A stretch of 64,000 nt of DNA from Candidatus Acetothermia bacterium (GTDB lineage Bacteria; Bipolaricaulota; Bipolaricaulia; RBG-16-55-9). Below, in pieces: positions 12,716 to 44,020 of this stretch (the stretch's first letter is position 1; each line of letters opens with the position of its first letter). The stretch covers positions 356,631 through 420,630 of the forward strand of contig JACQCZ010000014.1 of NCBI GenBank assembly GCA_016201405.1, in the 5' to 3' direction. The position numbers and the translations under genes were made by a program. The notes under the pieces are model-generated. The model searched no databases. It worked only from the letters and a program-made list of their open reading frames with translations, and was not told the origin of the DNA.

Positions 12716-13711
12716 TTATTTGGCTTGCAGTTCGCCTGTGATCTTGAGGTTGTCGCCTGATTTTGTGGGCGTTGCGATCAGGCACGATTCTTTGTCATCA
12801 CCCGACACGATCAACACAAACTTGTTCCCATCTTTGAGAAGAACAGTCTGTTTCCCTTTGTTAAAGAAAAGCATGGTTTTCCGCTCCCCTTCGGCAACAT
12901 AGGTGGCATCAACCTGCTGGGTCTTGGAAAGGGACTGGATTGTGAGGAGATTGGGAGAGTCCACGCCGATCTCAAACAGATCAGCACCCGATGAATCTTG
13001 CACACGCATGATAGACTGAGCGCTGCTCGTGGTGATATTGACATCTTTTACTTTGGTGAGTCCGGCAGGGCACTTCAGATCGCTGGTCGAGCCAGGAACA
13101 GGAAGAGTCGGCTGCGGAGCGGTCGAGATTGTATTTATCGTTGGCAATTCCACCAAGATCAAGAAGACTGCGCTGAGCGAATCGAGCGTCAAAATTGAAT
13201 AGGGGCTTGTGTTGTCCGTGCGCGGCACAACCACAAAGGCCGCGATCTTGCCCTCTTGGCTGAGATCAATGAGCACGATGATAAGAGAATCTTTGGTCAG
13301 ATAGACGACAGCGCCATATTGAATTTCAGAGTCACCCGGATTGACCGGATATTTCTTTGGAAATGTGAAGAGGCCGTAGTAGACAAAATTGACTTTGCCC
13401 TCAAAGAGCTGACCTATTTTCAGCGCATCCAGATAGAGAATTCCATTGACGCCGATGTCGCTGGTGGCATCGCCGAATTTGAGCTGCTTGTCAAACTCAG
13501 TTACCCACTGGGAGCCGCTGAGGTTGGTTGTCGTCTTTGTCTGGATTTCGTAATCGCCAAAGCCACTGTCATTGGGCAAAAGAATGGATACTTTTGGAGT
13601 ATTGGAACTGCTTTGCGCGCTCGCGGTAAGAAGTGGCCCGACATATCCGGTCGTGATCAAACTGCCTACGACTGCAACGAGTGTGACGAGCCAGAATCTT
13701 CGAATGGCCAT
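12716..13711 (-). CDS. Secreted protein of unknown function
   Basis: 331-aa protein with a signal peptide ('FWLVTLVAVVGSLITTGYVGPLLTASA'). The N-terminal half reads as an all-beta domain ('SILLPNDSGFGDYEIQTKTTTNL', 'GKVNFVYYGLFTFPKKYPV'). It is followed by a Pro/Thr-rich linker ('TISTAPQPTLPVPGSTS') and a second beta domain with Cys residues ('LKCPAGLTKVKDV', 'DDKESCLIA'). No family recognised. Start 13711 was chosen from AGGGGGG 6 nt upstream. It could share the strong promoter at 14145-14118, which would give it a 400-nt structured leader. Confidence 0.6.
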   Translation of the reverse strand: MAIRRFWLVTLVAVVGSLITTGYVGPLLTASAQSSSNTPKVSILLPNDSGFGDYEIQTKTTTNLSGSQWVTEFDKQLKFGDATSDIGVNGILYLDALKIGQLFEGKVNFVYYGLFTFPKKYPVNPGDSEIQYGAVVYLTKDSLIIVLIDLSQEGKIAAFVVVPRTDNTSPYSILTLDSLSAVFLILVELPTINTISTAPQPTLPVPGSTSDLKCPAGLTKVKDVNITTSSAQSIMRVQDSSGADLFEIGVDSPNLLTIQSLSKTQQVDATYVAEGERKTMLFFNKGKQTVLLKDGNKFVLIVSGDDKESCLIATPTKSGDNLKITGELQAK

Positions 13712-13849: not shown

Positions 13850-14111
13850 AATTAGCCTTTGGGGGCCGCTTACGCCTGCTTCAAGAGAAAGCGCTTGGTC
13901 GGATCACTCATTCGTCCCGCTTGAGCAAAAACCCTGGGCTGTTTCAGGAGGTAGGTCCCAAGGAAAACTCTGAGAGAGCGAAGAGCGGAATGCGCATTCT
14001 TCGGCAATCTTCTGGCCGACCAAGCACTTTCGTCTTGTAAGGAGGTGTCTGCAACATGTCTAGCAGCTTTCGTATATTTATAGTACCCATACAAATCATC
14101 TATGTACTCTA
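13850..14111 (-). ncRNA. Candidate structured RNA behind a consensus promoter
   Basis: A perfect TTGACA/TATAAT promoter predicts a start near 14111. Within the transcript, arms at 14031-14016 and 13902-13887 pair over 16 bp; the single base change is a G-U pair only on this strand, supporting an RNA read on the minus strand. Inside is a hairpin GAAGA...TCTTC, and a CTTGGG/CCCAGG hairpin whose loop exposes ACCTCC. Just 5' of the long stem lies CACCTCCTTA, the same as a 16S rRNA 3' end. The 3' boundary is a guess. It is not recognisable as RNase P, tmRNA or SRP RNA. It may instead be the leader of the downstream secreted-protein gene. Confidence 0.55.
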
Positions 14112-14117
14112 TCAGGT

Positions 14118-14145
14118 ATTATATCATCGAAAATCTAAATGTCAA
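14118..14145 (-). promoter_or_regulatory. Consensus sigma70 promoter
   Basis: Minus strand TTGACA (14145-14140), 16-bp spacer, TATAAT (14123-14118). Both hexamers match consensus perfectly, the best promoter in the window, and it faces the candidate structured RNA. Confidence 0.8.
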
Positions 14146-14159
14146 GCGTTGAAAAAATT

Positions 14160-14200
14160 ATAAAATTAAAAAGGGCTCCCTCAACTATGTAAGGGAGCCT
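14160..14200 (-). terminator. Intrinsic terminator of the dehydrogenase/crotonase gene
   Basis: Minus strand GGCTCCCT/AGGGAGCC arms (14199-14192, 14181-14174) with a 10-nt loop, followed by CTTTTTAATTTT. It lies 30 bp after the stop codon. Confidence 0.8.
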
Positions 14201-28050: not shown

Positions 28051-28950
28051 ATGAAGGAAAAGATGATCGCTGAGGGGCTGGCAATCCCGCAAAATTTTGC
28101 CGGCTTGCCACCGGACTTCTCCCGCTGGGAAGACTCCCACGTCGTCATCCTTCCTGTTCCGTATGATCTAACAACTTCGTATCAGTCAGGCGGTCGCTTT
28201 GGACCGCAAGCCATTCTAGAGGCTTCTCTTCAAGTCGAGCTTTATGATGACGAATTGGAGACGGAGCCGTATGAAATCGGCATTCACACACTTCCACCCC
28301 TTGAGCCGACTGTGGCCGGTCCAGAAGTGATGTCGGGCAAGATTCAAAGTGTTGTGGAAGATCTTCTCGAAGCAAAAAAATTTCCGCTCATTATTGGCGG
28401 TGATCATTCAATCACTATTGGCGTGCTCAAGGCGTTCGCCAAGCGCTACAAAAAATTCTCCGTCTTGCAGCTCGATGCGCATGCCGATCTGCGCGACAGC
28501 TATCATGGAACAACATACAGCCACGCTTGTGTTGCACGCCGGGCAACAGAGATCGTTTCATCACTGACGCAAATTGGCATTCGAAATTATTCTGCCGAAG
28601 AGGCAGAGTTTCTGGAAGGCTCTCAGGTCAAGCTGATCCCCGCTCGCGATCTGCAATCCAGTTTGGAGCCCGCTCTCAAAGCGATAGATTCCATCAAACA
28701 TCCGCTCTATATCACGCTCGATGTGGACGTCTTTGATTCTTCAATCATGCCAGCGACGGGCACACCTGAGCCGGGCGGACTCGACTGGTACGCTGTGATT
28801 GCTCTTTTGCGACGAGCCTTTGAAAAACATGAAGTTGTCGGGTGCGATGTGGTGGAGCTCGCTCCGATAGGCGGAATGAAAGCGCCTGATTTTCTGGTCG
28901 CCAAACTGATCTATAAAATGATCGGATATCTTTATAAAGCAAAATCCTAA
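28051..28950 (+). CDS. speB: Agmatinase (ureohydrolase family)
   Basis: 299-aa arginase/agmatinase-fold enzyme. Manganese ligands appear in order: 'IIGGDHSIT' (His), 'LQLDAHADLRDSYHG' (Asp, His, Asp), 'YITLDVDVFDSSIMPATGTPEPGG' (two Asp). Agmatinase hydrolyses agmatine to putrescine and urea. The agmatine-making decarboxylase is the next gene (12 nt gap), which favours agmatinase over arginase. Translation may be coupled to the short ORF ending just before this ATG. Confidence 0.9.
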   Translation: MKEKMIAEGLAIPQNFAGLPPDFSRWEDSHVVILPVPYDLTTSYQSGGRFGPQAILEASLQVELYDDELETEPYEIGIHTLPPLEPTVAGPEVMSGKIQSVVEDLLEAKKFPLIIGGDHSITIGVLKAFAKRYKKFSVLQLDAHADLRDSYHGTTYSHACVARRATEIVSSLTQIGIRNYSAEEAEFLEGSQVKLIPARDLQSSLEPALKAIDSIKHPLYITLDVDVFDSSIMPATGTPEPGGLDWYAVIALLRRAFEKHEVVGCDVVELAPIGGMKAPDFLVAKLIYKMIGYLYKAKS

Positions 28951-28961
28951 GGAGGTGGGCG

Positions 28962-43904: not shown

Positions 43905-44020
43905 GCTGCTAGACAGCGATGAAACAATGAAGCTTAGAGAAACAAAGTCAAGTACCACCTCCTTACAGGTACACACCTAGCAGCGAGCCTGCCGGCCTAC
44001 GAGGCCGGTTGGCTTTTTTT
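43905..44020 (+). ncRNA. Candidate small RNA with anti-Shine-Dalgarno loop
   Basis: Three nested elements in the stretch between the PEGA gene and fur: an outer stem GCTGCTAG/CTAGCAGC (43905-43912 with 43977-43984); an inner hairpin GTACC/GGTAC (43952-43956, 43968-43972) whose 11-nt loop is ACCTCCTTACA, identical to the tail of 16S rRNA over CACCTCCTTA; and a strong terminator. It could be processed from the PEGA mRNA 3' end or have its own promoter (TAGAAT at 43896 is a weak candidate). Boundaries are approximate. Confidence 0.5.
43986..44020 (+). terminator. Intrinsic terminator
   Basis: AGCCTGCCGGCC-TACGA-GGCCGGTTGGCT forms a 12-position stem with one G-U and one U-U, followed by TTTTTTT. 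It ends the PEGA-gene transcript or the candidate RNA and overlaps the fur stop. Confidence 0.85.

Follow-up and report, generated by a model that had tools for sequence, protein, structure and literature searches.

The minus strand between positions 13,850 and 14,145 of the 64,000-nucleotide stretch of DNA analysed here (the window), which comes from an uncultured Bipolaricaulota genome whose relatives are Candidatus Fraserbacteria, raises the question of whether a structured RNA is encoded there and, if so, what kind of RNA it might be and what it might do. An earlier note, made from the sequence alone, had proposed such an RNA from a promoter that faces a long-range stem, and had been unable to place it in any RNA class.

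Locus and fold of the window RNA

The promoter is of sigma-70 type and lies on the minus strand at 14118-14145, with TTGACA at 14145-14140, a 16-nt spacer within which TG precedes the -10 box, and TATAAT at 14123-14118. It is, as had been claimed, the single exact TTGACA-TATAAT match at 15-19 nt spacing in the 64 kb of the window, where 0.01 would be expected. Judged from the position of this promoter, the RNA would start near 14111 on the minus strand, and a TATAAA further inside, near 14075, could give rise to a shorter form. The gene upstream is FadJ-like by Pfam and is followed by a terminator-like hairpin and T-run (14174-14199, minus strand) that would insulate the RNA from it. On the opposite strand, a 35-aa open reading frame (MSSSFRIFIVPIQIIYVLYQVLYHRKSKCQALKKL, 14056-14163, plus strand) lies behind AAGGAGGTGTCTGCAAC and overlaps the promoter.

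The conserved RNA body, matched at 127 bits by the covariance model R1 described below, spans 13873-14052, and it and all its parts are read on the minus strand. Its closing helix, P1, is supported by covariation (5' strand 14015-14036, 3' strand 13883-13903) and has as its core the 16-bp stem singled out in the earlier note, in which GAAAGTGCTTGGTCGG (14031-14016) pairs with CCGACCAAGCGCTTTC (13902-13887) through 15 Watson-Crick pairs and one U-G pair that would be A.C if the plus strand were transcribed. Among 60 random 296-bp slices of the window, the highest score was 14 Watson-Crick pairs of 16. The folding energy of the minus-strand RNA is -84.9 kcal/mol (z = -3.15 relative to shuffles), and the plus strand has z = -2.17. 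A U-rich tail follows the 3' strand of P1 and may have a role in termination. The interval between P1 and P3 is occupied by P2, a variable hairpin region (13985-14014) defined from individual folds, whose sequence is not conserved. The P3 arm (13911-13984) consists of an outer stem (13984-13973/13921-13911), a GAGU/GCUC helix (13970-13967/13926-13923) and an inner stem (13963-13957/13938-13932), the arm and each of these helices resting on covariation. A U4/U5 internal loop is formed by a 5' tract of UUUU (13964-13967), a U-tract that nearly all P3 arms have, and a 3' tract of UUUUU (13927-13931), recognised from the two-tract pattern of the family. Two elements complementary to the Shine-Dalgarno (SD) sequence are present in this copy: CACCUCCUUA at 14038-14047, 5' of helix P1, and ACCUCCU at 13946-13952, in the apical loop of P3, which is unpaired in the consensus. 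Both had been glimpsed in the DNA, the first as CACCTCCTTA on the 5' side (14047-14038, minus strand) and the second as an internal hairpin exposing ACCTCC (13952-13947), which the consensus fold indeed places in an apical loop. CACCTCCTTA also occurs in the window at 28948-28957 (minus strand) and 43956-43965 (plus strand), with 0.06 occurrences expected.

Distribution and covariation of the family

No Rfam class fits, in agreement with the earlier note: nothing in Rfam matched the window or the homologous loci at gathering or relaxed thresholds; copies of RNase P RNA (RF00010) and tmRNA (RF00023) sit elsewhere in these genomes, which removes both identities. A DNA search of related genomes gave weak matches in two members of the window's taxonomic family, and one of these, used as a new query, recovered copies in all five sampled genomes of that family (the contigs bear the public names Candidatus Fraserbacteria RBG_16_55_9 and Candidatus Bipolaricaulota MAGs). 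Their alignment yielded a consistent fold with a P1 closing helix, a variable P2 and a P3 of the form CCAGAGUUUUCCC...ACCUCCU...GGGUUUUUGCUCAG. Covariance model R1 gave weaker, mostly full-length matches in other families of the order, nearly all of them convincing when inspected, and 100 genomes of the class were then searched with a second model, R2, built from those matches. R2 found 2-10 matches per genome in all 19 genomes of the window's order and no match in the 81 genomes of the class outside it. The window's own genome holds seven R2 matches plus one degenerate copy detected through R1. About 89 copies were collected with their flanks; because the relatives are known from draft metagenome assemblies, the true copy numbers are probably higher. 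Beyond the phylum, the search covered genome contigs in one exact-pattern scan and viral contigs in two, and a wider distribution is possible. The anti-SD-containing pattern gave nothing in viral contigs, and several candidate homologues were discarded: L004 (a 31-nt match), L020 and L021 (coding-like), L045 on a Flavobacteriaceae contig (12 bits) and eight pattern-matched viral contigs (at most 18 bits).

The compensatory changes to which the earlier note had looked for support are abundant. Across the seven nearest homologues, double changes that keep the pairing affect 26 of 42 pairs, against a mean of 8.6 in shuffles, none of 500 of which reaches 26, and 5-10 in slid controls; 92% of cells are paired in this alignment, and helix P1 alone contributes 15 compensatory pairs of its 20. 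Over all copies 310 cells are double-changed, compared with 76 in shuffled and at most 83 in slid alignments, and 94.8% are paired, but this larger alignment was fitted to the model and the seven-homologue figure is the cleaner of the two. Three lines of evidence assign the RNA to the minus strand, as had been argued from the one U-G pair: family-wide G-U cells number 105 against 34 A-C cells; upstream -10 boxes are enriched in the sense direction (37 of 75 copies vs 15.6 shuffled) with no enrichment antisense (7 of 77 vs 9.8); and c-di-GMP aptamers share the orientation of the RNA copies downstream of them. 3'-terminal T-runs, in contrast, fail to discriminate between the strands (32 vs 27 of 77). 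The 74-aa reading frame that offered a coding alternative is not preserved: the spacings between conserved blocks occur in every one of the three phases, the closest homologues included; a count of stop-free frames (75 of 89 copies vs 64 expected) is uninformative. The homologues thus bear out, through their compensatory changes, the reading of the minus strand as a structured RNA, and that the RNA family is real seems to us close to certain.

P3 is the most constant part of the family and is ordered as a covarying stem, a small CA/A internal loop, GGG/CCC or GAG/CUC, the U4/U5 loop and a hairpin of variable length, with the two-tract U4/U5 pattern in 78 of 89 copies. P1 varies by paralogue class (CUUGGCC/GGCCAAG, GGCGACCCC/GGGGUCGCC and others). 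A hairpin resembling the T-arm of tRNA, GGUUCGAAUCC, lies on the 3' side of P3 in 22 of the 89 copies (e.g. L097, L098, L100, L106, L110) and is absent from the window copy. The U4/U5 loop may resemble the ENE-type U-rich internal loops, in which short U-tracts face each other between GC-rich helices; no A-rich partner was identified here, and the resemblance is only a lead.

On these sequence comparisons the window RNA is one paralogue of a multi-copy, order-specific family of structured small RNAs that was previously undescribed. The literature searched held no paper joining Bipolaricaulota with a small RNA or riboswitch, and the family is new relative to Rfam and that literature, although it may still exist elsewhere in print. 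The extent of the covariation, the presence of the family in every sampled genome of the order and its absence from Rfam together make it a substantial addition to bacterial RNA biology.

Proposed anti-Shine-Dalgarno function, c-di-GMP aptamers and competing explanations

One conserved feature of the family is complementarity to the Shine-Dalgarno sequence. CCUCC, the core of the 16S anti-Shine-Dalgarno sequence, is present in 85 of 89 copies and missing in four. Of 77 distinct copies, 35 carry the 5' element ACCTCCTT, where shuffling gives 0.37, with ACCUCCUU positioned immediately 5' of P1 in 35 of 77 distinct flanks, and ACCUCC is found in 23 of 63 distinct P3 arms against 1.6 in shuffles; GGAGG occurs in none of the P3 arms. 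Complementarity to the SD sequence is thus conserved in exposed positions, both sites being enriched over shuffles and the loop site unpaired in the consensus.

A second feature is the linkage of some copies to riboswitch aptamers. In six copies (L131, L152, L162, L165, L157 and L107) a c-di-GMP-I-GGC aptamer encoded on the same strand precedes the RNA by no more than about 125 nt; four of these copies belong to the window's family, and G009 and G006, on two other family branches, contribute one apiece. With 96 aptamer matches across 21 genomes, about 42 Mb and two strands, about 0.01 chance neighbours would be expected by our own calculation. The c-di-GMP-I (GEMM) riboswitch, RF03167, is in each case a separate element directly upstream. 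These aptamers precede a non-coding RNA directly rather than an mRNA. No expression platform is evident in the interval between aptamer and RNA; a possible pairing, in L131 and L152, of the aptamer segment GGCCUACGG with the terminator arm CCGUAGGCC downstream was considered and set aside, as neither L162 nor L107 shares it. No c-di-GMP aptamer lies upstream of the window copy, which is served by a promoter of its own, and an Rfam scan found no c-di-GMP-I aptamer within the RNA itself.

The reading we favour, with confidence and doubt about evenly balanced, is that these are trans-acting anti-SD small RNAs that repress translation, some of them gated by c-di-GMP. A rigid P1/P3 scaffold would present one or two anti-SD elements, which, pairing in trans with target mRNAs over the Shine-Dalgarno region, would keep the 30S subunit from binding and repress translation. 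Hfq, found in 2 of 30 genomes, would not be used in most of these organisms, and the RNAs probably act independently of it. In aptamer-linked copies repression would respond to c-di-GMP, the window copy using its own promoter instead, and the U4/U5 loop might, at a guess, stabilise the RNA through a tertiary contact or a bound protein. The conservation of CCUCC, the aptamer linkage, the sense -10 boxes and the scarcity of Hfq argue for this mechanism, as do two precedents. The csRNAs of the CiaRH regulon in Streptococcus are short two-hairpin small RNAs that carry anti-SD and anti-AUG sequences in a linker (PMC3091779); there, too, several related small RNAs are found per genome, with unpaired SD-complementary sequence and in a host without Hfq, and they control translation initiation, as is proposed for the RNAs described here (PMC3091779). 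The csRNAs differ from the window family, which has a branched fold, the U4/U5 loop and aptamer-coupled copies, and no sequence relation is claimed. Copies of LhrC in Listeria are nearly identical, 111-114 nt long, and the RNA blocks an SD sequence with Hfq dispensable (PMC4132741); like the present family, LhrC is multi-copy and has several redundant C/U-rich target-binding sites in a loop and in single strands (PMC4132741). Its fold is unrelated, and the window family instead combines paralogue classes that have diverged with a core module common to the order. Homology with either group is not claimed; the Rfam scan of the window and loci gave no match to the families that Rfam covers.

Several observations count against anti-SD repression. 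CCUCC would fit thousands of SD sites, so specificity is not explained by CCUCC; the longest conserved loop, that of class T (below), gave no recurrent site with perfect complementarity in mRNAs; and the fold is more elaborate than simple SD pairing requires. Four copies are free of CCUCC, in several f1 copies the 5' motif is able to pair with an upstream GGAG, and there is the missing expression platform. In the main rival, the C-rich and U4/U5 loops would bind a KH, S1 or cold-shock protein and the RNA would serve as a sponge or ribonucleoprotein scaffold. We consider protein binding of this kind unlikely but a serious contender. It would account for the internal loop with its U-tracts, which is more constant than any other feature and plays no part in SD pairing, for apical loops that are C-rich without CCUCC (CCCCC, CCUC), and for the module's presence in class T, a large relative, as in the RNAs of ribonucleoproteins. 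Yet what is conserved is the anti-SD core itself, ACCUCC(UU), and not just any run of C, and no protein gene regularly co-occurs near the copies.

A cis-acting leader, in which ACCUCC would sequester the SD sequence of the following co-transcribed gene and so control it, is a decidedly improbable alternative. At the window locus a co-directional gene with a signal-peptide-like start does begin about 160 nt downstream (ATG at 13711), and c-di-GMP-I aptamers are usually leader elements, but the protein encoded there has no Pfam match and no downstream gene is conserved across the family. The nearest downstream open reading frame, with frames called mechanically, is convergent in 53 of 85 cases (including the conserved f1 copies L102, L105, L113, L117 and L120) and co-directional in 32, and in L002 the RNA and its terminator face a clpB-like gene. 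Such a lack of fixed orientation is as expected of trans-acting RNAs, and, like the window promoter and the enriched -10 boxes, it would be compatible with an independent transcript. Two f1 copies (L017 and L018, also L182 and L183) follow closely on a LuxR-type response-regulator gene in two genomes, a neighbourhood that is apparently conserved.

A divergent 6S-like RNA, rod-shaped and bound to RNA polymerase, is less probable again and in our view a poor prospect. The window RNA shares with 6S RNA (RF00013) its length class, a long closing helix and a promoter of its own, from which it would be transcribed independently. The slot is also vacant: RF00013 found no 6S RNA in 40 genomes of the class, with controls positive in 5, so that 6S is there either absent or too divergent for the model. 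Against this, the family has no match to the model, numbers up to ten copies per genome, is branched by P2 (and P4 in some), carries anti-SD elements in its loops, and is absent from the rest of the class, though 6S is missing there too. Last, a small protein encoded by the 74-aa frame or by the 35-aa plus-strand frame (ATG 14056, with the ribosome-binding site AAGGAGGT, which is the complement of the anti-SD motif) has next to no chance of being right, for, good as the SD and spacing of the plus-strand frame are in the window, that frame is not conserved among other copies, antisense frames after the motif are rarer than shuffling predicts (7 of 54 copies vs 10.3), the block spacings break the 74-aa frame, and the compensatory changes are of RNA type.

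If trans-acting anti-SD repression is correct, the order would possess a translational control network, largely free of Hfq, that imitates the anti-SD sequence of the ribosome, and what its c-di-GMP riboswitches control would be a trans-acting RNA and not an mRNA. The most far-reaching version, for which we have a tentative hope and rather more doubt, is one of global Hfq-independent translational control by up to ten structured paralogues in each genome, all acting as mimics of the 16S rRNA 3' end and several of them switched by c-di-GMP through riboswitches, with class T sharing the P3 module and the U4/U5 loop constituting a new tertiary or protein-binding motif.

Class T, a large relative

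One paralogue class, class T, is a strongly conserved, single-copy RNA about 450 nt long that is present in roughly 15 of the order's 19 genomes. It has no Rfam match, relaxed thresholds included, and searches with RF00010 and RF00023 ruled out RNase P RNA and tmRNA. Its locus in L168 lies at 1700-2350 on the minus strand, and others are found in L153, L160, L170, L173, L174, L176, L167, L169, L177, L180, L220, L223 and L224. It contains the P3 module with an invariant loop, CUGCCAACCUCCU, the longest conserved loop. No recurrent, perfectly complementary mRNA site was found for this loop, the search returning class T itself and single hits in four genomes (G000, G002, G007 and G010), compatible with chance. 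The only exact complement in the window's genome, AGGAGGTTGGCAG (L218 near 1020, plus strand; G000:C4:77516-77528), sits at most 7 nt before the ATG of a signal-peptide-like open reading frame, in the position of an SD sequence, and may be there by chance. The P3 module and class T are clear structural targets, and class T merits separate study. It also has the T-arm-like hairpin and a conserved GAUGAUCGCUC, and often adjoins a gene for a 143-aa response-regulator receiver protein.
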